NCBI GenBank assembly: GCA_963931925.1
Contig: OZ007567.1
Span: 80,423,186 to 80,487,185 of the forward strand
Source: Onchidella celtica
Lineage: Eukaryota; Mollusca; Gastropoda; Systellommatophora; Onchidiidae
Length of the DNA stretch: 64,000 nucleotides
Reading direction: 5' to 3'
Both the position numbers and the translations under genes were made by a program. The notes under the pieces are model-generated. The model was given only the letters and a program-made list of their open reading frames with translations, did not search any database and was not told the origin of the DNA. Each line of letters opens with the position of its first letter. Within the stretch, counting starts at the first letter, position 1. Below, in pieces: positions 47,725-64,000 of this stretch.

Positions 47725-48898
47725 GATAAAAATGTACACTCCTGCCAAGACAAGGCTATCTCTCTCAAAAAAGTTTGTTCATAACATGTCCCGTAAATGA
47801 AGAGCCGCACAATGGAAATGGTTTCGCTTTGCTGCTACTGATGGAAGTCGCCATTTTGGTACCTCGTATTCGAGCCAATCCCATTTGATTTGAAGGGGTG
47901 TCCGGATCTGTAATTCCAGCAGTGCCCCCGAAAAGTGAACGTTTGTTGTGAAATCAAGAGCTTAAATAAGGGACAAGTGTACCCTCACTGTCCTGTGATG
48001 CCATGATAATTAGGCCTGTACATGTATCGCCTTCAGCTGGGGCACCCCTGTTTAATAAATTCCGAAAGAAGAGAGAATCCCCTTTATGGTTCTGTCAGCG
48101 ACCCTAAAATATAATTATGCTTACGGTTGCTATAAACTTTTATAAGTGTGTCAGACCCCAGCTAAACTTATCTTGATTGAGCCAGTAAAGCACAGGGATG
48201 TGACCCAACAGCTGACGTCCTCTAAAGAATCCAGTTTTATCATATTTGCAGAATGTTAATGTTGCATGGAGCCTAGGACAGTATTTTGATATGATCACTG
48301 CATATTCCACTAACTTCTACATGACTTTCATTCATTTTGTTATCTCCTTTGGGACAATAGCTCTAATAACAAGTGCATATGCATGCTATCAGTTTAAATG
48401 GCCAGACTTTCGCAATAAGATAAAAGGGCTTATAGGCTGGTTTCTCGATTGAGGAAGCATAGGCACTATCTTGTCAACAAAACCGCATGGGTCGCCCGTT
48501 GATTAGAGGGGAGTCAAAGTCGGTGGGAAGAAACGTCGTGTCATCGCTTCGTCGCTGTCCAGGTTCACAAAATTTTGAAGAGCACATAGATCTAGCTTGG
48601 TAATGATAACAGAAACGGAAATAATCTTGCCGTTTACTGTCAGATCTATCTCTACTAAAGTAATCGACGACTTTTTGTGATAACATAAAGTGGGGAAAAA
48701 TCGGAAAAAATCTTCCCCCAATCTAAATATTGGGTCATTCCAATCCAAGTCAGTGACTTCATTGGCTGACGCTGCGAGGGGTCACAATGGCGGATAGGTA
48801 CTAACTCGGCCACATGAAGTAGAGGTCTAATTAGTAAAGTGTGTTTCAGCATCTTTTATCATTGGGGAAATTAAAGTTCAGGATTTAATAGTAGAATC
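47725..48898. promoter_or_regulatory. Shared upstream region of head-to-head BOD1L and mitoferrin genes
   Basis: 1174 bp separate the two ATGs, facing apart, so 5' UTRs and promoters of both genes must lie here or in unseen upstream exons. I see no clear TATA box. The sequence is moderately GC-balanced with isolated CpGs, notably around 48480-48560 and 48765-48785. A bidirectional promoter is an inference from spacing only. Confidence 0.45.
48291..48452 (+). CDS. Small ORF with a hydrophobic segment, upstream of mitoferrin
   Basis: From an ATG at 48291 a 53-residue frame runs to a stop, with a hydrophobic stretch (FIHFVISFGTIALITSAYAC) followed by a basic end (KWPDFRNKIKG). The frame is open further upstream, and an acceptor-like TTTGCAG lies at 48245-48251. 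It could be a small membrane protein, an exon of an unseen transcript, an upstream ORF of mitoferrin, or chance. I do not recognise it. Confidence 0.2.
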   Translation: MITAYSTNFYMTFIHFVISFGTIALITSAYACYQFKWPDFRNKIKGLIGWFLD

Positions 48899-49024
48899 AT
48901 GGAGGAAGACGACAATCCGTATGAAACTCTTGGGATACAGACTTCTATGACTACCCACATGCTTGCCGGAGCGGCAGCAGGAGTCATGGAGCACTCGGTT
49001 ATGTACCCTGTTGATTGCGTAAAG
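48899..49024 (+). CDS. SLC25A37: Mitoferrin exon 1
   Basis: Encodes residues 1-42, from [20 protein letters not shown] through the first transmembrane helix to PVDCVK. The donor GTAAGG follows AAG in phase 0. It lies 1.17 kb from the BOD1L start codon on the other strand. Confidence 0.93.
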
Positions 49025-52000
49025 GTAAGGTGTTCCATCATCACGATTCAGTGATGCATGGAAAAGGGTGGACGCGTTATTACCTATGCATTTAGGATAT
49101 CAGCATATGCATGCATTGATTTTATTAACAATTTTAATGAAAAAGCAAATGTCCACCGCATTACTTGTAATAGCAAAGTTGTTAAATTTGTTGAGGAGGT
49201 ATTATGCCTGCTTCTAGATCAGCTAAAAAACGACGAAAGGAATGACACATATTATATTATATATAATAGAGTCTAGATCTAGGGCATCCTAGGCCTAGCA
49301 GATCGTTAAATCGTGACTGCACATAGTTGGTAGGTCCGGTTTGTAAAGGATTACTCGATCCAAGTTTCTTTGTCAGGCCATGAGTTTAACGAAGTTTAAT
49401 GAGACAGCCCCCTCTATGCGGAAAGTCCCTAAATTTAAGACCATCTTCAAACTACTGATTTTTTGGCATATTTTTGACACTCTCTCCTCCCCCATTAATT
49501 TTACACTTCAGTATAGCTACATATGTCCATGCTAAAGCCTTGATGGCTTGAATTGGCTTGATGTCTAAAACCTGTAAAAAATAAAAGTGAAGAGGCATTT
49601 TGCATGGATTCTTGATTGTTCTACTGTTAGAAACATGATTTTCATTTAGGCCTAATCCAACACTGAATTTAACTGAATTTGCTGAAAGAAAAGTAGCCCG
49701 CAGCCCCACCCCACCCCTTAATAGATCTATACCTACCAAATTTTAATTCATTGTAAGAATAAAATGTAACCATAGTTGAAGAACATACTTGTACTCCCCC
49801 ACATAAACTTAAAATGTATGCTGGAGTTGTTTATGGATGGATCTTAATCCCAAAATGGATTTATTACTAGCCTTCAGCTTACTCAAATCACTGTCTTGTT
49901 TCATAAAATAAATTTACTAGTCACCTAATTATAAGTCAGCCTCAGTCCGTAAACCATAATACAAATCCATGGCCTTCTGATTATATCCCCAAGTCACACT
50001 GAGTGTGGTACTGGTAAGACTTAACCCTCACCCTGCGAGGGGCGGCAATTGTCGGTATTTACCCGCAAGCGCTCACGCCGCACGGGCGGCAAAAGTCGGG
50101 AAGGTCAAGCTGACCGCACCACACGCAAGCTGTATTTTCACGCATCAGGTCACTGACCTTTTTGAGACGTAACCACCGTGTTATTGTTCATTAGTATCTC
50201 TTCTAAATCCAAGGCATTGTGACATGGACATGTTAACCAGTGAACCACTGGTCGGAATCACAAAGACTAAGCTTTCAAAGGCTCTCCCCGCACTTTCAAA
50301 AGATGTAACATCGACATGCGAACTGTTGCTCAACAAATTTGCAATATTATCTCATTTTTTCACAAGCTGACCACCATCTGGAGTTGTCTGTATCTAAGAA
50401 CCAATCAGAAACAAGCTCTGAAATAATCTTTGCCCCAAATGCCCACATTGGTTTAATAGTATGTGTCAATCAGGATGAAACCATTTGTGTAGGGCTTGGG
50501 AGGGCGTGGCTAGTTATCATGCTTTGTTCTCATGAAAACTACAGCTGTCAGTTTGGAATCATAAGTCAGATCATTGGTTAGAGACTGACAGACTAAGATT
50601 TTGCTGGTTAATTCATTATCAAGCCTGATAAGGCATAGCTCGAATGTTTTCATACCAATCAATAAAAAGTGAACCACGTGGACAGCGTTTGTGGTCATCG
50701 CATAGCGGCACGGGTCAGTGACCCCAGATAAGGTTCTCCGTGAGTAAGTTCACTGACGGGGCAGCGGGCTTTACGGGTAGCACGTGGGGTATGGGTTAAA
50801 GTTTTATAAAAGGCTCATCCAGTTGAGGACCTCCCATAGCGAGGGAGAATTGAATGCTGAACTGACTAAATGGACTTGGAGTTGGGCTTTGCCCCAAATG
50901 CCCACATTGGTTTAATAGTATGTGTCAATCAGGATGAAACCATTTGTGTAGGGCTTGGGAGGGCGTGGCTAGTTATCATGCTTTGTTCTCATGAAAACTA
51001 CAGCTGTCAGTTTGGAATCATAAGTCAGATCATTGGTTAGAGACTGACAGACTAAGATTTTGCTGGTTAATTCATTATCAAGCCTGATAAGGCATAGCTC
51101 GAATGTTTTCATACCAATCAATAAAAAGTGAACCACGTGGACAGCGTTTGTGGTCATCGCATAGCGGCACGGGTCAGTGACCCCAGATAAGGTTCTCCGT
51201 GAGTAAGTTCACTGACGGGGCAGCGGGCTTTACGGGTAGCACGTGGGGTATGGGTTAAAGTTTTATAAAAGGCTCATCCAGTTGAGGACCTCCCATAGCG
51301 AGGGAGAATTGAATGCTGAACTGACTAAATGGACTTGGAGTTGGGCTCGATCTGGAAAGCACAGTAATTCTAGAATAATATTCAAAGGGTAATCACTGAT
51401 TATTTGATTATGAGGAAGCCTCTCCCCTGGATGTGTGGAAATAATCTGAGAACTTTTCTATCATTCAGTGAATCGGCAAGGATTATTGAATCCAGTTCTC
51501 CAGAAAACACACAAACCGTTCGAAGTTAAATGGGGCCAAAGTGAGAAAGATATTAGGTGAACAAACTTGAAAGAAATTTATGAACCCTATCTCCAATCAT
51601 CAAAGCTTCTGTAACCCTTCATCCTGACTGTAAGTGTACCACTCAACTCAAGATAAACTGATATAATGGTAATCATCCTCCCTCCCCTATCATTCTGCAT
51701 CCTTTGAACAATTCTGAAACATTTTCAAGATAGAGAACACCATCTGTTACATGATTACTGATGGGACTGTATCATTCAGGGACAGGAATTCGCAGGAAAT
51801 TCCGGATTTCTAGATTTTTAAAAATCTTTTTTTCCTGAGTATACATTGTTTTGTTTGTTGTCAAATATTATGAATTGGCCATAGTGTATGTGTGTATTGA
51901 GTTTGGAAGTGATGCATTACTTCAAAAGTTCAGGACATTTTTTTGTCCCCATCCCTGATCATTATTTGTACACTGTGACAGTGATTGCATTGTGTTGCAG

Positions 52001-54163
52001 TGTTTCTAATTTAGAAGATCCAATGTAGAATTTTATGTTTATAGGGTACACAACAAAATGCAGAATAACTTTACAAGAAGGGCAGACTTCATTGGTAAAT
52101 TGGTATTTATATCATACTATTCTTTACATTTTAGAGTACAGACATCACAATTCATACTCAACTCAAAGTAGAAGGATAGCAAAACTATTTTTTATTGTAA
52201 ATGAAAGCTTTACACTTCCACATATTTTTGTTTGAACACAATATCTATCTACAGGATCTCTGTTTCCTGTGGGATTACAATATAGGATCTCTGTTTTCTG
52301 GGGGATTACACTCAAAGTGCTCAGCATCCAGTTAACTTGTGTTGTTTCTTACTTTCATATCCACAGACAAGAATGCAGTGTCTTGTGCCAGACCCAAAAG
52401 CAGATTACAGAAGTGTCGTAGATGCTCTGAATAAAATAGTTCGTCATGAGGGCATCAAAAACACTGTCAGAGGATTTAGTGCCATGGCCATAGGTGCAGG
52501 TCCAGCTCATGCTTTGTACTTTGCCTGCTATGAGAAGGTGAAGCATGTTCTAAGTGGAGGGAAACAAGGAAATCATATGGCGCATGGTGAGTTTGCTTCA
52601 GAGCTTTATATAAAATTTATCAATGTCAAAAAACAGGTTGAAAACATTTGTTTCAGATAGCAATTTAATAACATAGTTTATTATTTTGTTATTGCCTTAT
52701 GCATGAAGTAGTAGGAATGTACCTGTGGCTGTATTGATGTTTTTGATAGCTTTATTTTACTTCATACCAAGGCAGGGGTTTTGAGTCTTTTCTGATTTGT
52801 TGCTTTTCAATTTTATCATGCAATGTATAATTATATTGTAATTTAATCTGCTGTTGCAGGGGTTGCAGGATGTACAGCCACACTTCTTCATGATGCAATA
52901 ATGAATCCAGCTGATGGTAAGGCTTTCTTACATTTCGTCCATGCTGTTATTTGTCCAAAATCCCATCCCACTTTCTTCTGCTTCTGTTGTTATCAAATAT
53001 TCCTATGGTAGACTGGAGAGTGCGGTGTGGGATGTATATATTGGCTTCTTCAATACAAAGTTTGATAGGGAATAGTACATGGTGTATTATTTGATCCTTG
53101 TATTGAAGACCAAACTTTAATTCCCCAAGCAAAGCTACAGATTAGATATTGCAATGGATGATTGGTATGGGCTGTCACAGCATAGAAGAGTAATCTTCAG
53201 AATTGAAATGTCTGCCTGTCTCCTTGTTTATGGCAAAAACAAAAAAGAGAGAGAGAAAAAATTGTATGTTGCAAAACCTGCACAAGAAACAAAACAGTTC
53301 TAAACATTACAGTGAGTCAGAAATGAAACTTGCAATGTTATGTATATTATATAATATAACTTTTTTTATTTTGAATTTATTTAACCTTCAAAGCCATGCT
53401 GCTACCTCACAGATTTTATGTTTGTTTTTTTTTTAATATTTTGCATTTCATCTTGAATGGCTGAGAAAGTGTGAAACATTGAGCAGCTGTTGCAAGAAAG
53501 TGTTGCCAAAGTGTAGAAAACAAAAAGAGGGTTTTTACATTGTAAGTCTGTTTGATCCTACATACTCAAAGTTTTTTGTTAAATGAACATGTTTTTGTCT
53601 TCATTTCAGTGGTCAAGCAGCGCATGCAGATGTATGGAAGCCCGTATCAAACAACATATTTATGCTTTCGAGACATATTAAGGACAGAAGGAATGGGTGC
53701 ATTTTACCGAAGCTACACCACTCAGCTCACAATGAATATTCCTTTCCAGTCCATGCAGTTCATTATGTATGAAATTATGCAAGACTTGCTGAACAAGGAC
53801 CGTAATTATGATCCATTTTCACACATCATTGCTGGAGCAGTAGCTGGGGCTGTGGCTGCCAGTGTAACAATGCCATTGGATGTTTGCAAAACCCTTCTTA
53901 ACACCCAGGAACATTGTGCCAGGAGTCATTTGACTTACATTAGTGGCATGGCCTCTGCCTTTCGGACGGTTTATGAATTCTGTGGCATTTCTGGATTTTA
54001 CCGAGGACTGACTGCACGTGTTATTTATCAGATGCCATCAACAGCTATTTCATGGTCAGTGTATGAATTCTTCAAGTATGTGATTCACAGACAGAGAAAC
54101 CAATTGCAAGATGACGGATACATGAGTACTGCTGTACATATAGCCACAGCCACTGCCAGGTGA
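48899..54163 (+). CDS. SLC25A37: Mitoferrin, mitochondrial iron carrier (SLC25A37/28 type), 4-exon gene
   Basis: Exons 48899-49024, 52367-52586, 52860-52916 and 53610-54163 join in phase to 957 nt, 318 residues. The three carrier signatures PxDxxK are present: PVDCVK (37-42), PADVVK (132-137) and PLDVCK (223-228), with the [10 protein letters not shown] block at 85-94 and [11 protein letters not shown] in exons 3-4. These match mitoferrins rather than other SLC25 carriers. The protein imports ferrous iron across the inner mitochondrial membrane for heme and Fe-S synthesis (established for the family). The length is normal or slightly short at the N-terminus, and six transmembrane helices are expected. 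The ATG at 48899 is the first in the exon and is followed by conserved spacing to repeat 1. Invertebrates usually have one gene for the vertebrate pair, so the symbol is by orthology. The far downstream hairpins may control its mRNA. Confidence 0.95.
49025..50020. other. Mitoferrin intron 1, first part
   Basis: About 1 kb after the exon 1 donor. AT-rich with TCTAGATCTAG words near 49272; no gene or bounded repeat was recognised. Confidence 0.4.
50025..50795. mobile_element. TTAA-flanked MITE, 771 bp, copy 2
   Basis: The same element as at 35258, about 95% identical by eye, again with TTAA (50021-50024 and 50796-50799). It sits in mitoferrin intron 1. Its right half plus downstream flank is tandemly duplicated. 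Confidence 0.87.
50428..51347. repeat. Perfect 459-bp tandem duplication
   Basis: Bases 50428-50888 recur without a visible difference at 50887-51347 (offset 459). The unit holds the right half of the TTAA MITE plus about 90 bp of flank. The junction shows only 2 bp of microhomology. It is either very recent or an assembly artefact. Confidence 0.92.
51348..52366. other. Mitoferrin intron 1, last part
   Basis: No gene. Contains a short direct duplication AGGATCTCTGTTT(T/C)CTG at 52254-52312. The introns at 52587-52859 and 52917-53609 likewise show nothing but AT-rich sequence. Confidence 0.45.
52367..52586 (+). CDS. SLC25A37: Mitoferrin exon 2
   Basis: Starts [20 protein letters not shown] right after CCACAG and ends MAHG with donor GTGAGT. 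It carries the end of carrier repeat 1 and helix 2 ([20 protein letters not shown]). The phase-1 end joins exon 3 to give GGVAGC. Confidence 0.93.
52860..52916 (+). CDS. SLC25A37: Mitoferrin exon 3 (57-bp microexon)
   Basis: Encodes [19 protein letters not shown] between TGTTGCAG and donor GTAAGG. It holds the start of carrier repeat 2 including the Pro and Asp of the second PxDxxK. It was missed by open-frame searching and placed by phase and family motif. Confidence 0.93.
53610..54163 (+). CDS. SLC25A37: Mitoferrin exon 4 (last coding exon)
   Basis: Starts after CATTTCAG, completes PADVVK and contains carrier repeats 2-3: [33 protein letters not shown] and [20 protein letters not shown]. 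The stop TGA is at 54161-54163. The residues before the repeat-2 helix ([20 protein letters not shown]) are typical of mitoferrin. Confidence 0.94.
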
Positions 54164-54387
54164 ATTGTACTAAAAGCGTTAGAGTATGTAAGTCATTTGT
54201 TCTGGATCTATGTCAGTGAGAGCTTGAACATTTTCTGCTTTGTCATCTCCCTACTACAGCCTCATTTCTTGCCTCCCTATTATCCCATGTAACTGTATTG
54301 AACTAAAGTAATATCTAACCTATTTATTCCCTGCAATCTGAAAGTAGACCATGGTTCTTCCAAAACTGTACAGAAAACAGACCAAAG

Positions 54388-54562
54388 AATAAATATACAG
54401 GCAGCAAAACATTTCGGCACCAAACATATAAAGAAGTTTTTCAGAGATTAAAACTGTTCAGTGAAGTTTAAATACATGTCAGAATTTGCCATTCTTCGCC
54501 TGAATCGTCAAAAGACAAGTGACATATTATACTTTTTACACTCTTGTGCATGTTTTAATAAA
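54388..54562 (+). promoter_or_regulatory. Candidate proximal polyadenylation signals of mitoferrin
   Basis: AATAAA occurs at 54388-54393 and 54557-54562, 225-400 bp after the mitoferrin stop. Use of the second would give a short 3' UTR lacking all six downstream hairpins; another AATAAA lies at 59145-59150. Which is used cannot be read from sequence. Confidence 0.4.
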
Positions 54563-57500
54563 ATAGGGGGTTAAATTTTTTGTGAAATATTGTTGGGCGG
54601 TATTTGATTTCGAACCTACATTGGTGTGGACAGGTATTTATTTAATGACTCATGTCTCTGCACATCCATTTTTTTCTACATTGAAAATAATATGTACGTT
54701 AGATATAGAGTCTAGTTCACAAAATAATATGTACATTAGATATAGAGTCTAGTTCACAATCATCATGAGTGTTTTTTCTGATAACAATACTTTTTAACCA
54801 GATTTGTTTTAAAGTGTTATGGTGGTCACCTATCAGTATATATCTTCCAATAACAAACTGAAACAAACACATGTAGATTTATAGTGGTGCAGGGCAGTCA
54901 TTAGTATCAGAAAACGTAATGCTGAAATGTCGTTTTTGATCTGATATTCAAAATTCCAAGAAATCATTTTAAATGTTGGTGTTTTTTACACTTGATTTTG
55001 TGAATTGTGCCTTATACAGTTATAGCCATATTGGGTTTTTGCTTACATAGTGAAATATTTTTTTTTCATAAGTTTTAGGGATAGGGTTGAACTAGTTACT
55101 AGTCTGTCTTTGTTACAACATTGTTTTCATGTTCAACATGGTCACGGGGGAGGATTGGCCACAAATTTGTAACAAAAACGTTGAGCCATGTAAGTACTTA
55201 ATTGCTTCATGGCATTATATATATATCCCCTAAGCAATTTTTACTTTTTTTTTAATGCATTTTTTCATTTAAAGGAAAAAAAAAGACAAGGGATCTAAAT
55301 AGTAGGTGCTGTAACTAGTATGAAGACTGGTGTAACTAGTGTAAGACTGGTGGTCCAGATTTTCCTATAGATCTCACCTGAACTGCATGTAAATATGAGT
55401 TCATTATTACCATGATGAGGCTCAACAAAGACAACGATGAGCATGAGATTCTGATGTCACTGGTCTTAATACGTAATGAGTCTGTTTGCTATGGTAAGGG
55501 CAGCTGTGTAGTTTGGATTTCCTGGTCGATGTGGCAATTAGTGAATTACAACGCATACAATTTAGTCATGAGCAGCTGTGACTGCAGTTCAGGTTAATTT
55601 GCAGGAAAGCATTAGGTGCATAAATTTTCATCAGCTGTGAGTGTTACATTAGCATTTCTCCCTTCTAAAATGTTATTTAGCAGGTCATGAAAACTAAAAC
55701 TTGAAGCTCTTCCCTTCAGGGTATCTGTGCATTACAGCGGTTTTTAGAGGCTACTGATTGCATCTAGCCATTGACTTTCTCAGATATTAAAATGAAAAGT
55801 TACTGGGAATTTGAATTATAAATGCAAGCAATGTTTTTCTATAGTTACTAGTATCTCGCTCCATTGTCTCCTGAACACTCCATCAATGACAAAGGTATTT
55901 AATATAGTACTTAGCATTCCATCAATAGTTCATCAGTGATGGGTCATGAATGCCTCAGAGCAGAGGCCTCGATAGAATACATTCACTCAGATCTTTGGGC
56001 AGAGTGATCACTCGCTCAGTAGTCTTTCATGAAGTGGTCAGTAGAATATTTCCTCAATAAATAATCACAGTGAGATTTTTCATTGCCTTGTTAAATGAAG
56101 TACATTTTGTGGGTAGCCTTTCCTTAGTTTTCAACACACTGGAGCAATGCCATGTAATTATTATGGTACTTTAAGCAGTATTATAAAGATAAAGGATCGG
56201 ATGCCAATAGTTGAATGAGATGCATGTTCATTTGAAATGTTTCTCATTAAATTGTCCTGGCCTACTTGTCTTGTGCTTGTTTTACTTTTACTATGTGCAC
56301 CACCATGATTATAAGTAAACATATGGGGCTTTTAACAAGACCTATCACGACTTGCAGCAGTTCAGATTTGTAGTGTGAAATTTTGAAGATTGTGCGCCTT
56401 CCTTTCGACCTGCAAAAGGTTCTGTTTGAGATCTTGAGACTTGAACTGGTGGGGAAAGGTTGTTGTTTTTTTGAGATTGTTTGTGTCACCGACTGATTGC
56501 CTCTGATCCCTTTTTTTTTCTACAAACACATGGGCCCATGTCATCATCACTTCCTGCAAAGTCATTGACCAGTGTGCACCGCACCATTGCATACACTGCT
56601 TACTGTTCTATCTATCTGCGTACAACATTCCTGGCTAAATTTTGTGAATGACCCTATGCATCTGGTTATCTATGATTACTGTTATTTTTTTTATGGGGAA
56701 TCCTTTTGGTCTGAAGTTGTGTTGTTTTTTTTCTCTAGCCATACAAAGCACTGGACAGTTACTAGTTTTAAAAGTAAAATACATGGGTCTAACCATATTA
56801 AGACTTGCAAGAAAAAGCTCATGACTCACCAGTTTGCTTTTCCACATCGTACATAATGAATAATTTGATGTAAACAGATGAATGGGGGAGGGGAGGGAAG
56901 GGATAATTTGATTGGTATGTTGTGTTCATCTCATGCATCTTTTATGATCATGCCTTTGCTGATTGCAATTGACTCTAGAATATGATGCAAGTTCGGCATT
57001 CAGTTATGATAACAATCAGCAGACAGTATAATGTACAAAAACTGGCATTAAGCCATGCATATAACTCATAACTGATGTCAAATAATACCCTTCATCCTGT
57101 ATTTCATTCTGGATGTATACTGTCACCTGATTAGATCCAGTGGAAATGGAAAATTAATGTATCAGAATGTTATCTCCTATAGAAATACAGAATGGTCCTC
57201 GCCTGACTGTATTTTGCCAAAAACAGATGTTTACATGTTCATTCTTAGTAAGTGTTAGCTCAGGTTTAACAAATGATACAGCAGAATTGAACTTTGCATG
57301 CATAGCATCCCGTTTGTCAATTATATAGTTTACATTTAAATTGAGTGATAGCTCATTAGCTGTGGCCATGATGAATGATAACTATTGTAATGGGATTCAT
57401 ATTTGGGAGCCTCATCACAAGCTGTCTGTTCTATCAAACTCCTGTCAAAGAGAAGCCCACTAAAGTCTGTCATGCATTAAATGTAAGTGTAAGGTGAGGT

Positions 57501-57605
57501 AGAAAGTATTGAGTAGGTGGTGTGTCTACTTTTACCAAAACAAGCCATTGATTGATTGGTATTATATTAGTAATTATGGGTAGCAGCTGGACAAGGAGGT
57601 CATGA

Positions 57606-58225
57606 CAGACCTGCCGTTTATGCCGGTTCAATAGGTATTTTACCAATTTTTTGGGGGGGAAATGGCTGTTTTACCGATTTTCCAATTTTAATAGAAATTT
57701 ACCGATGTTTTTCCCTGATCCCTACAGTATTGAACATACTTCAAAATTAATGCTTCGCTTACTTGCTGAGAGTTTGTTCTCTTGGTTGAGTCTAGGCTAG
57801 CCTGCACAAATTTTGCGCTTTCAATCAGATTCTTTCAGATTTGCCGATCATCATCATTATCATCATCTTTTAGATCTACACGTGTGTTTTTTTTTCAACA
57901 TTGCCTGAGTGATATTATCGTGAAAATTAGTTTTAATTTATCTAGATTCTATTCAGCTTAGTTGTACTCATACCAAGACCTGATTCAGTGATTTTAGAGT
58001 TAGATCTAGATCTAGAGACTAGTCTAGGGATCGAGGATTCAAGACTTTAAAAAAGTGTGACACGATCCGTAGATCATCTAGAAATTTTTTGTTTGCCGTC
58101 TTTTTAGATCATTCGAACTTAGATCTAGGCCTACTTAACTTCCTTGGATCTAGATATGTTTCAATGATATGCTGATTTTTGGGTCTGATCATACTGATTT
58201 TCTGGTTTGGATTGTGGCAGGTCTG
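57606..58225. mobile_element. hAT-like element with CAGACCTGCC ends
   Basis: Ends CAGACCTGCC...GGCAGGTCTG are exact inverted 10-mers flanked by TCATGA on both sides (57600-57605, 58226-58231). 620 bp, noncoding, with AGATCTAGATCTAG-rich sequence inside. The similar CCAGACCTGCCAAGTG at about 61974 may be a fragment of a relative. Confidence 0.6.
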
Positions 58226-60278
58226 TCATGATCATAATAAATGACAGTGTATTTATTTTTCTATCTAAGAAGCAGTAGAGGAAAGGGTTATATGTGATAG
58301 AATTTCAACAAGAGAATCAAACAATAGTATGGCTTTCATCATAATCTTAATAAGAGTAAGACCAACAGAGCAGGGATGATATTATTCAAAAGCTGATTCA
58401 TGTATAATACTCATCAATTTTGTGAACGTGTGTCACAGTGGCTCGTGAATTTCCATTTAAATGATGATTTTAAATTCTTGCGAATCCGAATTACAAAAGC
58501 ATTTATTACAGTAAACATTTACATGTACTTAACATAGTCTCTTTCATGTTGGCTGTTTTATTGTTTTGTTTTGTTTTTTTATTATTCTTTGCTGTGTTTC
58601 TCCTGGACTGTCTTACCTGTCAGTTATTGTGTATTATTTTGACTTTGGTTCTATATGTTAATTGTTATGTCCATTTCTTGTCCTCAGCACTGCAGAAAGA
58701 TAGCAGAGAACCTGGCCCAACTGTTGATGAACAAGTGGTTCAGCATATGTGTGGACTGTGTGGAGCATGGAACCTTCAGATAATGTTTAATTGTTTCTGG
58801 GAAAACTGAAGTGATAGTGGGTGTATTCACCTACAGGCATATTCTGTGATGATTTTTAACATACATCAAATGTAGATTTCAAATACAAGACCGACATAAA
58901 GCTTCAAGAGTGCATTATAATATCTTTTCCCCTATTTTTGTAAAAAGATTTTGAAGAAACAAGCTTTAAGAAAAATTAAGGCACAGTACACTTAAATTAA
59001 GAAAGAAATTGGAGATTTCTCGGCCGGTTTCAGTGGTGCTTGTTTTGTGTGAATACCTTTAAGATATGCAGCATAATTTATGTTCGAGTTGAAGTGAGAA
59101 TTTTACATGTTAATCTACCAAGAAAATATATAGTGGGTTAAATGACAATAAAAGTTGTGAAATAATTTTCTTTTTATTTCAAATACGGGGGTAGTTTTTT
59201 TGTGAAGAATCCTAGGATTTGGGGCTAATGTATGTAACATGAATTGGATGGGGATTACATGCATGTTGTTTTGAAGTATGTGAAAATCTAAGACTTGCAA
59301 GCTGTTTTAGCAATGAATTTATTGTTGATGAAACTCACAAACATTGTATGTCTCCAAAATCAAATTTTACATTGGGGTTGAGAAAGGAAAAACCATTGTG
59401 TTTTACTGCTTGTTTTACAATCACCAAATAGGGATCAAAGTTACTGCAACGCATCGCAGAACCCGAGCTGCATGGCATGTGGATGGAAAGAAAAGCTTAA
59501 TTTTGGTACCAAAAGAAAAGAGAAAAATGAGAACCAGAAAATTTTTGACACACAGTTTGTGATTGTCACTGACGATATTACACCAGTCATACTGAGTTCT
59601 TTCAACAAGAAAGAGAGAAATTAATTATTCAGAAAATGCAAATGATATTATTTAGAAGTTGCAGCATGTTCCATTTAGGGCCAGCTTGGCTAGAATGAAT
59701 ACAGATTAAGCCACTCAGTGGCTTTCCTTGAAGAAATATCTTCTTTATGGACAGCCAGCACTTTGTAAGACCTTTTCATTATGATAATGCTTGAGAGTTT
59801 AGCTGGTGAAAGACATCTGAGAGTAAAGTAAGGAATCAGCACACAGAGTTAATCTGTGTATATTTTGAGTTGAATGCATGGATACTGCGCCTATACTAAG
59901 CTTTATATTCTGTTTGATTGGGTGAATTGTTCAGTTTTCACGTTCTCCCCAAAAGAAGCCTAGTGGCTTTGGGTATATGTGTGGTAAGCTTAAACTAAAG
60001 AGCAATGGATTTGTATCTTGTGATAAGTGTTGCTTATCACACTGTATTTTTAATGAAGAGACTGTGAAGAGGCTGGGCATAAACAGCTGTGTCAAGTAGA
60101 ATAGTGTGGCCTAAGCTATATTGAGGCTATGTTTAGACACATAACAACCACTGATTACAGTGATTACAATGTGACATCATTAAATTTTCTTAAGGATTTC
60201 TGTGTTATTGAAAAGACAGCACAGACTTATTATCTTTTTAAGTTGTTTTTTTTTTTTTTTTCAAATATTTTGTGAATT

Positions 60279-60315
60279 ACTTGTCAAATGGAGAACATTT
60301 ACAAGTTTGTGTACA
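60279..60315 (+). promoter_or_regulatory. IRE-like hairpin, copy 1 of 6
   Basis: Lower stem ACTTGT/ACAAGT (6 bp), bulged C on the 5' side, upper stem AAATG/CATTT (5 bp), loop GAGAA. After ACAAG come 4 nt and then TGTACA. The upper stem differs from copies 2-4 by a paired G-to-A and C-to-T change, so pairing is kept. TGTACATA here also fits the Pumilio consensus TGTANATA. Confidence 0.7.
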
Positions 60316-60684
60316 TAACACCCCACAGTTCCAATATTGCTTGGAACTAGGTTGAAATTTCTCCTGTTCACCCAAGGGTTCTCAGATTTGACATCATTTT
60401 TGGATCCAGAAATTTAAAATTTGGAAATGTCAATTGCATTAAGTCTTAAATTTATATGGTGTAATGATTTACAAGAAAGAGATGTCTTTGTGCGTCAAGA
60501 GCTAACATCATATTGAACATTGTTTTTGCTTCTGGGGAACCAACCCAAGACAATGACATGTTATCTTGTGAGATAACAAAATGCAAAACAAAGCTAAAGA
60601 ATTAAGATCTCAAATTGTATTAAAGTCAGATAAATTGTCATTGGTTTTTTTTTTTTTATTGTTGTCCTAGATTTTTGTTCTAAC

Positions 60685-60720
60685 CTTGTCAGATGTAGAA
60701 CATCTACAAGCACATGTAAA
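60685..60720 (+). promoter_or_regulatory. IRE-like hairpin, copy 2 of 6
   Basis: Lower stem CTTGT/ACAAG, bulged C, upper stem AGATG/CATCT, loop TAGAA, all pairs Watson-Crick. Then 4 nt and TGTAAA, the only copy in which the downstream hexamer is not TGTACA. Confidence 0.7.
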
Positions 60721-60935
60721 GTCTCTCCTATTCTCTTATGGCACATTGTGTCAAGAGCATTTAAAATGTTTGCTTTTTGGGCTTGGACAGCCACTTAATG
60801 AATGATTACACCACAAAATATTTATATACATAGACTAGAGATTAAGGTTTTGGTATTGAGAAATGTGTTATGTTTTCTTAGGAAATTCAAAGTTGACTTT
60901 TGGAGTTGTTAACGTGACTGAATTTTGCCTGTCAC

Positions 60936-60971
60936 CTTGTCAGATGGAGAACATCTACAAGCAGTTGTACA
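60936..60971 (+). promoter_or_regulatory. IRE-like hairpin, copy 3 of 6
   Basis: Lower stem CTTGT/ACAAG, bulged C, upper stem AGATG/CATCT, loop GAGAA, 4-nt gap, TGTACA. It is 251 bp after copy 2. The hairpin is identical to copy 2 except for the first loop base, while flanking sequence is different. Confidence 0.72.
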
Positions 60972-62443
60972 TTTGTTTGAATTATTTATGTGGAACATTA
61001 AACAGATAGGTTTCTTCTTTTTGTAATTTTTTTTTTTTTTTAACATTTAGTATTTTTTACTGACGCTGAATTTGGACTATATCACTGAGCAGTGGTGGTG
61101 ATTGCATTTTACAATGGAAAAGCAGGTGTTGTGGAGAAAGCACATTCTGATTACATGCATAGCATGAGGTGCTTCATCTGTCACTGCGAAATTGCCTATG
61201 CTGAAATAGCTAACGGTCATGGTAGCAGAAAATTGAAATTTTATAGCTTACCTGTAGAAAATCCATGGAGTTGAAATGACATTGGGCTGTATTTCCTCTA
61301 TTGTATCCTACTGAAAACTTTTAATAGATGAATATAGTCAAAATTGCACCTGTACGACTTATGCTGCCATGAGTAAGTGAAATTGAAGATGGGAATTCTA
61401 GAATGCTAGAATCCTGGAAATTTCTAGAAGTCTTTGGTATTCTATTTGCACATTGTTGATGAGATATACCGACAGAATCACTGTGTTAATTGAAATAGTA
61501 CTGGTCTGTTTTGCAGAGATACAGTTGTCTCTGGGTAGGAACACTGCTGTCAAGAAACAAGAAAAAGAGCAGGTAGCCAGTGCGCAACTTTATGTTTCAG
61601 CCAAAGTAAATCATTGTGTCAGCCTTGGAGGACTGTCTGTAATAATCCATGTTTTGTACAGAAAATCCATCTGAAAGATTCCCCACAATGTTGTTAAAAG
61701 CAGGAATTCTTTTTTTTTTTAAGAACATCAAACAAGAGTGTAACCCCAATTTATAAGAAACAATATCCAGTTGATAGATAGTAAATCAGCTTCCTCTTTC
61801 AATCCATGTTTGTGATTTTGTTTCGAAATAGCAAGATTCTGGTTTACACAGCGGTGTAGCTGCCATGAGGTGAAATTGGGCTTTTCAAGCTTTCACTGGA
61901 GAATTGGAACGAGGGGGTGAGAGGCAGTTTCGTCTCTTGTGCACAGGGTTGAGAACAACTTGGTACTTAAGCCAGACCTGCCAAGTGTCCCTTTTTTACA
62001 GGACTGTCTTATATGTAGGGAGATGTGAAATAATTTTCTTTATAAAAAAGTAAAATTCTTTCCAGGTGTGAGAATCCTTAGAGGATAATGGCTAATCCAG
62101 TTAAGTGTGAGACGATGTTAACACTATGCACAGTAAATACACAAAGTACATTATGTGACCTGTGAAGTCTTACAGTGTTTTGTATTGCGTTAGAACTCTT
62201 TTCTATGGAAAACACCCCCTAACTTCTGATAGTTTAGGTTTGCCTTTATTGGGCATGGGGATATGTTCCTCTAGAGGATTTCCTTATTGCAGTGGTCATT
62301 TGGTTGGCAGGTCTACTTCAGCCTTTGAATTTAGATGGAAGAAACAGATTTCACGGCTGATTCATGCTCTTAGATGAACTTGGCTTCCAGCAGCATGTTC
62401 GTATGTGGAGACAACCGTGTTATAATTTGATGACATAAATTTC

Positions 62444-62479
62444 CTTGCCAGATGAAGAACATCTGCAAGCTCATGTACA
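62444..62479 (+). promoter_or_regulatory. IRE-like hairpin, copy 4 of 6
   Basis: Lower stem CTTGC/GCAAG, bulged C, upper stem AGATG/CATCT, loop AAGAA, 4-nt gap, TGTACA. The fifth lower pair has changed from T-A to C-G on both sides relative to copies 2-3, a compensatory change. Confidence 0.72.
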
Positions 62480-63204
62480 GATTTGACAGTGCCCACTGTA
62501 ACCAGATAACATAATAATTGTTGTTAAATTCAACAGCTGTGAACTTTACCTATTGATGTTGTGAAAGACAGAAAAACCATGAAATGGCCAAAGGTCACCT
62601 CAGTATTGCTTTAGTGTATCTCCACTCTATACCAAAAATTGAGATAAGGCCGTTACGTGACTTAACAAAATGTGTTAAAAATGTATTCCTAAAAAAATTG
62701 TGAAGGTATCTCACTTCTGGGAGCAGACTTTGGAGTGTGAAAGAATTGATCTTACACTTTCTAAAGTTTAACCAAATTTGCAAATGGTTGTCTCAAAATA
62801 CACTAATGTGGAGATAGAGTGAAGCAGTACCGGGGCATCAAAAAGTTTCTAATTTTGTTTATGGTGTTAAAAAATAAAATCAGTCAGGTCAGGAAGTAGT
62901 TAAAAAATGTCTTGATTTAATAAATCTTGTATGTTTAAACTACTTACTAGTGATGTAACTGAATATAACAGTGTATTTTAGGACTTGGTTGTGAGTGTGG
63001 GCAGAAGCACACCTGTCACGATATGAAATTTTAAACCTGTTATTCAGATCATTGGTTGATGTCACAAATTGCTTACCTGTCACTTTAACTTAACATTTAA
63101 AATATCAGTCTGAGTGCCGCATGATGCTCTTTATGAGAATTCTTTGAAAAGCAAAGTTTCAGTGGCTGGTCAAACGATTTAAACTACTAAATCAGTTTGT
63201 CATT

Positions 63205-63241
63205 ACATGTGAGGTTCAGAAAACCTACAAGTCCATGTACA
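63205..63241 (+). promoter_or_regulatory. IRE-like hairpin, copy 5 of 6 (diverged)
   Basis: Lower stem ACATGT/ACAAGT with one A-A mismatch, bulged G in place of C, upper stem AGGTT/AACCT (three positions changed on each side, all paired), loop CAGAA, 4-nt gap, TGTACA. The wholesale but compensated upper-stem change is the strongest sign of structural selection. Confidence 0.65.
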
Positions 63242-63344
63242 AAAGAATGGATTTACTCTTTTCTCGTATTTAGTAGTTTCTACATGTATCTTGTTTCACC
63301 AGCCTGTTATGGTGTGGCGTTCTTCCTTCTGTCGCATTTGGGAA

Positions 63345-63381
63345 ACTTGTCAAACAGAGAAAGTTTACAAGTCTGTGTACA
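63345..63381 (+). promoter_or_regulatory. IRE-like hairpin, copy 6 of 6
   Basis: Lower stem ACTTGT/ACAAGT, bulged C, upper stem AAAC/GTTT plus an A-A mismatch next to the loop, loop GAGAA, 4-nt gap, TGTACA. It lies 104 bp after copy 5. The upper stem again differs from the other copies while four of five pairs are kept. Confidence 0.65.
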
Positions 63382-64000
63382 ATAGTGCAAATTACCCTTC
63401 CTATATTTATTTTTGTTTAATCTCTAAAAGTATCTTCCTGTCACTGAGACTATGATAAACAGATTTTAATATTTATAATAGGTAATGGCCTAAACAATCC
63501 TGAAGCATGCATTTTTTAAAGTAATAGTACTAATAGGACTCTAAAGGCAACACATTAGTTGAAGAATATTTGAAATTTGTGAAAGGTTTTACATAAATCA
63601 TTGGAAAGGTATTATATGGCAACTTTGAAATATCCTAAGGCCAGAAATAGATCAGTGCCTAACAAGAACTGAATTTTTTTTATTTTTTTTTACTTGGAGA
63701 GAAACAATGAACTATCTCAAAATTTCAGCCAGTAGAAACATACAGTAGGTTAAAGATGATGGTTGGATGGATATGTCAGTTGATAGATATATGGTGAATT
63801 ATTTTACCTAAGGTGTGAATGAAATAATTGACTTTGGAAAATGATTTAAGCATCTTTAATTTCATGTCCAACTAGGGTTCAAATTATGTAGCACAGTTGC
63901 AAGAGAACATGATATGGTATTTGTTAAGTATCGGTTCAAGTGTTTAAAACTTATGCAAACTGTAGACCTGAGGTTTAAATTGCGTGCCATGCAAATGAAG
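63382..64000. other. Window end, no gene seen
   Basis: AT-rich sequence following the sixth hairpin. I see no coding region or repeat boundary. The hairpin series could continue beyond the window. Confidence 0.4.

Follow-up and report, generated by a model that had tools for sequence, protein, structure and literature searches.

The window analysed here was a 64,000-nt stretch of the Onchidella celtica genome (GenBank assembly GCA_963931925.1, contig OZ007567.1, positions 80,423,186 to 80,487,185 of the forward strand). It contained a mitochondrial carrier gene (Pfam PF00153) of four coding exons, whose boundaries were deduced from frame and splice consensus. This gene was taken to be mitoferrin from signature sequences, including HDAIMNPA; mitoferrin brings iron into mitochondria. 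Twenty-five candidates scored in the genome gave three matches, of which this gene was the sole close one, the other two being 31% and 26% identical. Downstream of the gene and on its sense (+) strand, six elements of 37 nt, each a hairpin with a UGUA tail, were found between 60279 and 63381 (Table 1).

Each element consisted of a lower stem of 5 bp, a single bulged base on the 5′ side, an upper stem of 5 bp and a pentaloop NAGAA, and the consensus in register, with its changes, was (A/C)CTTGTC-ARATG-NAGAA-CATYT-ACAAG-NNNN-TGTACA. In the alignment of the six elements, 18 of 45 columns were invariant. The bulged base was C in five copies and G in copy 5, the 3′ end of the loop was AGAA in all six, and UGUA stood exactly 4 nt past the stem in every copy (UGUACA in five, UGUAAA in copy 2). 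The 4-nt spacer was fixed in length in 6/6 copies, with an identity of 0.28, and the 20-base flanks had identities of 0.29 and 0.32, all at chance level. An earlier sequence-only reading had described six copies at these places on the + strand, with this same distribution of bulged bases, a constant AGAA, unrelated flanks, several upper-stem variants and a T-A to C-G change in the lower stem of copy 4, all of which was borne out. It had given the lower stem as 5–6 bp: the 5 bp stood, but a sixth, outer A-T pair was confined to copies 1, 5 and 6, with C on both sides in copies 2, 3 and 4. It had also noticed the loop-side mismatch of copy 6 but missed the lower-stem A-A mismatch of copy 5, and the fixed UGUA tail had been overlooked.

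Table 1. Coordinates of the mitoferrin gene, the six elements downstream of it and three CAGTG hairpins of the ferritin regions (window positions, unless preceded by the handle of another locus)
Feature	Position	Strand	Details
Mitoferrin coding exon 1	48899..49024	+	Translation and donor GTAAGG
Mitoferrin coding exon 2	52367..52586	+	PF00153
Mitoferrin coding exon 3	52860..52916	+	
Mitoferrin coding exon 4	53610..54163	+	Stop TGA 54161-54163
Putative distal mitoferrin 3′ region	54164..64000	+	G+T skew domain reaching ~68.5 kb, outside the window
Element 1	60279..60315	+	Hairpin 60280-60305, bulge C 60285, loop GAGAA 60291-60295
Element 1, remaining parts		+	Extra outer A-T pair 60279/60306; spacer 60306-60309; UGUACA 60310-60315
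Element 2	60684..60720	+	Hairpin 60685-60710, loop UAGAA, tail UGUAAA 60715-60720
Element 3	60935..60971	+	Hairpin 60936-60961, loop GAGAA, tail UGUACA 60966-60971
Element 4	62443..62479	+	Hairpin 62444-62469, loop AAGAA, compensated lower C-G pair, UGUACA 62474-62479
Element 5	63205..63241	+	Hairpin 63206-63231, bulge G, lower-stem A-A mismatch, loop CAGAA, UGUACA 63236-63241
Element 6	63345..63381	+	Hairpin 63346-63371, loop-side A-A mismatch, loop GAGAA, UGUACA 63376-63381
CAGTG hairpin	L031:2111	-	Upper 4; lower 4 of 5
CAGTG hairpin	L033:2215	+	Upper 5; lower 1 of 5
CAGTG hairpin	L033:6876	-	Upper 4; lower 2 of 5

When pairing was scored on the given structure, 58 of 60 cells were paired and both sides had changed in five of the ten pairs (six cells); in each case none of 500 shuffles was as high, in agreement with the compensating stem changes that the sequence-only reading had claimed. 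The count of further pair types was not raised (372 of 500 shuffles were as high). When the 3′ partners were shifted by 1–3 columns, only 25–38% of the cells remained paired; RNAalifold predicted the identical ten pairs. Seven of 630 column pairs were complementary in all six rows with a double change, four of them structural and three non-structural. All 58 paired cells were Watson-Crick. The lack of any G-U pair is uncommon in RNA helices that drift, and on such evidence alone the hairpins are compatible with either strand. When flanks of 150 or 300 nt were included in the folding, mean pair probabilities of the sense hairpins were 0.60–0.99. Conservation of stems, loop and tail between flanks and a spacer at chance level fits old copies held by selection.

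A descriptor of the hairpin, with at least 9 of its 10 pairs required, found six hairpins on the + strand of 54164–64000, all with TGTA at +4. In 1000 dinucleotide shuffles the mean was 0.13 and the maximum 2, and with the tail required every shuffle gave 0; as the descriptor was derived from the copies themselves, these figures represent an effect size and not an independent test. The hairpin shape alone is not unique, and five other hairpins with 9/10 pairs and AGAA occurred on the two strands of 144 kb, none of them with a TGTA tail within 43 printed bases. A leave-one-out weight matrix scored the copies at 27.0–46.6 bits and the best other position of the same 144 kb at 13.2 bits. The element model, run over 130 kb surrounding two MAT genes and three ferritin matches, scored 13.7 bits at best.

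A 34-place pattern made from the copies and allowing up to 3 mismatches matched at least six places in the 1.14-Gb genome, and all six belonged to the array (two in the reversed control). A looser pattern (upper stem free, up to 2 mismatches) matched at least 64 places (reversed control, 53); six were the array and the 58 outside it represented 54 distinct strings, none of which had four or more of the five upper-stem pairs (maximum 3/5). These counts are lower bounds, and the patterns match by sequence, so that other stem sequences may escape them. The possibility raised with the sequence-only reading, that the copies belong to a genome-wide dispersed repeat, was thus rejected for this sequence, and the array stood. 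A coding repeat was also rejected, copy 2 having an in-frame stop in one frame (read by eye). Exact-pattern scans of viral and prokaryote collections gave no match in either, as expected for an animal element. No match above the gathering cut-off of Rfam 15 was obtained in the window, and none of six weak matches (E up to 10) in 60200–63450 overlapped an element.

An inverted stretch at ~69.55 kb (L002:5554-5593, - strand) was noticed as a possible seventh copy, scoring 19.4 bits (E 0.014 over 144 kb). It had the same lower stem, the four-base spacer and TGTACA; its apical part differed and its fold was unlike that of the element. A gapped genome pattern matched 19 places, namely four array copies and 15 others including this stretch (five in the reversed control), and we treat the stretch as probable chance or decay.

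Across 50–100 kb (the window and loci L002–L005), G+T skew outlined strand domains with a flip at ~68.5 kb. Between 52 and 68.5 kb, 31 of 33 half-kb windows had a positive skew; between 68.5 and 100 kb, 55 of 63 had a negative one. The signs matched mitoferrin on the + strand and, on the - strand ~23 kb past the array, a gene judged by eye to be TIA1-like, and an AATAAA stood at 68383, near the flip. The skew points indirectly to long-term transcription of mitoferrin to ~68.5 kb, against convergent transcription of the neighbour. Since it kept the sense of mitoferrin to ~68.5 kb and then flipped, the array probably lies within the transcribed domain of mitoferrin.

We consider it fairly probable that the six elements are a functional RNA array whose hairpin-plus-UGUACA modules act on mitoferrin transcripts. 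As a cis-regulatory array they would lie in a long 3′ part of the transcript, either untranslated or distal and detained, and each element would be a docking module of two parts: a hairpin, whose recognition would depend on the AGAA loop, the bulged C and the conserved lower stem, and a UGUACA held exactly four nucleotides past the stem. Several modules might be occupied, perhaps cooperatively, by an RNA-binding protein acting by itself or together with a protein that binds UGUA (CFIm25-like or Pumilio-like); their occupancy would set the stability, translation or 3′-end choice of mitoferrin mRNA, and hence the capacity for iron import into mitochondria. If so, an array at one gene only, built of a two-part module, would point to a new specificity of RNA binding and to mitochondrial iron being controlled post-transcriptionally, outside the code of iron-responsive elements (IREs). 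Among the titles listed in literature searches that named mitoferrin, none concerned structured 3′ elements in its mRNA, the wording "3 UTR" of the one search on stem-loops being such that other spellings may be missed.

Several observations weigh against this interpretation. The alignment comprised six rows, so that the covariation rested on about five independent double changes. Of the 620 column pairs outside the structure, three likewise paired in all six rows with a double change. The stability of single hairpins was not unusual against shuffles (z -0.33 to -2.25), and the antisense hairpins folded about equally well. Element 5 had a pair probability of 0.42 with 50-nt flanks and, taken alone, preferred a competing fold involving its tail. 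UGUACA was often predicted to be partly paired, with an unpaired probability of 0.20–0.69 (150-nt flanks). The array started 6.1 kb past the mitoferrin stop, and AATAAA occurred in between at 54388, 54557, 56056, 58236 and 59147. For vertebrate MAT2A mRNA, passages of PMC8139829 describe CFIm25 as acting through intronic UGUA and UGUU before hairpin hp1, and mutation of 10 of 11 UGUA sites downstream of hp1 as leaving splicing unchanged; on that account UGUA near hairpins need not matter.

The distance of the array from the gene (6.1–9.2 kb past the stop, with poly(A) signals between) would suit hairpins belonging to another transcript, such as a long non-coding RNA, an antisense RNA or an unannotated gene. 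Stable hairpins also form on the antisense strand, and the sense strand cannot be told from the symmetric TGTACA and stems or from G-U pairs, of which there are none; a precedent may be seen in the protein-sequestering NORAD, in which, according to the part of PMC4947167 concerned, UGUA-type sites are coupled with hairpins in diverged repeats. We nevertheless think this unlikely, as the skew keeps the sense of mitoferrin through the array, and among 13 frames of at least 75 amino acids (stop-to-stop, + strand, 54164–68600) none was recognized by eye, no family search having been made, which leaves room for an unknown gene. The exclusively Watson-Crick pairing of the 58 cells and the palindromic TGTACA would also be compatible with a feature of the DNA or of its history, that is, old local duplications without an RNA role or sites of a DNA-binding protein; at a G-U rate of 10%, finding none in 58 has a probability of 0.002 if cells are independent. 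The stems, however, kept their pairing through double changes amid flanks and a spacer at chance-level identity, which is predicted neither by drift nor by a plain DNA protein site, and we rate such an origin as quite unlikely.

Two known classes of RNA hairpin were weighed against the functional array proposed above. The sequence-only reading had called it an IRE-like cluster at an iron-importer gene; the covarying, locus-specific array on the sense side held up, but the IRE label was rejected, since three of the five features given in PMC8466369 were absent from all six copies. These features, to which that text allows exceptions, are a C14-G18 pair, AGU, nucleotide 19, a bulged C8 and a five-bp upper helix. 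No copy had the C-G pair at loop positions 14–18 (the first base was G, U, G, A, C and G, the fifth A in 6/6), copy 2 alone being able to form another loop pair, U-A. Positions 15–17 read AGA in 6/6 copies, never AGU. The U or C bulge at 19, which makes a six-base loop, was absent from these five-base loops, and a hexaloop register paired 35% of cells. Likeness to IREs was limited to the bulged C (5/6, G in copy 5) and the five-bp upper helix (5/6, copy 6 having four pairs and a mismatch). That the elements are non-canonical IREs, read by IRP1 and stabilizing mitoferrin mRNA in iron shortage as in the transferrin receptor cluster, is therefore very improbable in our estimate, although the gene is an iron gene and the loop, like CAGUGN, has A and G as its second and third bases. 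The rule is also loosened by the loop definition CAGWGH of SIREs 3.0, which permits A at 17, by a working Pfn2 IRE with A14 and U18 (both in the cited part of PMC12230718) and by a mention of organisms with G8 IREs in PMC8466369; moreover, in this genome the 5′ leader of a ferritin-like exon holds an IRE-shaped hairpin with the loop CAGGGU, so that the local iron regulatory protein (IRP) might accept other loops. Against this stand the lack of the six-base loop, of C14-G18 and of U17 in 6/6 copies, the 100–1000 fold loss of IRP binding on removal of nucleotide 19 stated in PMC8466369, the G bulge of element 5, the absence of Rfam matches at the elements and the UGUACA tail, which is not among the IRE features listed in PMC8466369. 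Compared with the transferrin receptor cluster (IRP1/IRP2), the array shares an iron-transport gene, multiple 3′ hairpins and a C bulge five pairs below the loop, but has NAGAA pentaloops without C14-G18, AGU and nucleotide 19, and a fixed UGUACA tail. Closer in architecture, by analogy, is the array of six dispersed 3′ hairpins (hp1–hp6) in vertebrate MAT2A mRNA, where METTL16 writes N6-methyladenosine and on which CFIm25, a UGUA-binding protein involved in MAT2A control (as described in part of PMC8139829), also acts. Both arrays place six hairpins in a single distal 3′ region of one metabolic gene, element 6 contains ACAGAGAA, and the 3′ region contains the nonamer UACAGARAA twice, at 54369 and 61657. 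This is a likeness and not membership, because the nonamer was present in 0/6 elements (element 6 has AACAGAGAA), and METTL16 membership was rejected. The window held five nonamers on the + strand and four on the - strand, about the chance expectation. In place of UACAGARAA the elements have a five-base NAGAA loop; gene and pathway are different, and no fixed UGUACA tail is described for MAT2A in the passages cited. Downstream of the two MAT genes of this genome (40 kb) the element model reached a maximum of 11.9 bits, and a passage of PMC9778287 reports the MAT2A hairpins as vertebrate-only, so that sites of METTL16 type appear extremely improbable.

The analogy with MAT2A would allow a tentative extension of the functional-array interpretation, which we regard as possible but doubtful: a single-target, IRP-independent RNA sensor circuit for mitochondrial iron import. 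In such a circuit a protein would read the six modules on mitoferrin mRNA and tune the mRNA to the demand for iron or an iron cofactor, as METTL16 does for MAT2A and S-adenosylmethionine.

The elements were also compared with other systems using UGUA or AGNN motifs. The Pumilio motif UGUAHAUA was found in only one of the six elements (element 1). The CFIm25 motif UGUA was present in 6/6; alone this is weak, UGUA being frequent (106 in 14.3 kb and 96 on the other strand), but here its position was fixed relative to the hairpin and it was extended to UGUACA in 5/6. With NORAD and its Pumilio sites the array shares diverged repeats with UGUA-type motifs and short hairpins; it differs in that the full UGUACAUA occurs in element 1 only and that a compact 37-nt module lies behind a protein gene. 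The yeast RNase III Rnt1 recognizes AGNN-tetraloop hairpins. AGAA at the loop is common to both, but the loop here is a pentaloop with a free first base, and we know of no loop specificity of the Rnt1 type in animals.

Ferritin regions of the same genome served as a control for IREs. With Rfam no IRE was found in 13 loci, and 6/9 ferritin loci gave three weak non-IRE matches. A descriptor scan (C bulge, loop CAGNG, 4 or 5 upper pairs) of the ferritin regions yielded nine hairpins; three had CAGTG (Table 1), none of them before a ferritin start on its own strand. The sole hairpin of the scan before a ferritin start had CAGGGT, with five upper and three lower pairs, and a canonical IRE before a ferritin start was not found in 90 kb around the three ferritin matches. 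This CAGGGU hairpin was IRE-shaped and lay at L031:7119-7152 (+), with its loop at L031:7134, in the leader of a ferritin-like exon that begins at L031:7251 and has its donor after QSM. The IRE shape appeared in the centroid and not in the minimum-energy fold (z -0.71); if the base is correct, this hairpin would be an unusual ferritin IRE. Between two ferritin-like exons, frames resembling a retrotransposon gag-pol (by eye) occupied L032:4541-8214 (-).

Some further features were noticed around the mitoferrin gene. Its stop TGA lay inside a donor-like CAG/GTGAAT (54157-54163), and an acceptor-like tttcttgtcctcag was present at 58674-58687, ending at 58687; these two sites might bound a terminal intron in the 3′ region. 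Just upstream of the gene, on the opposite strand, a frame at 47431-47778 (-) resembled BOD1 (by eye). Two identical frames of 79 amino acids, at 50510-50749 and 50969-51208 (-), were 459 bases apart and represent a recent local duplication or a repeat.

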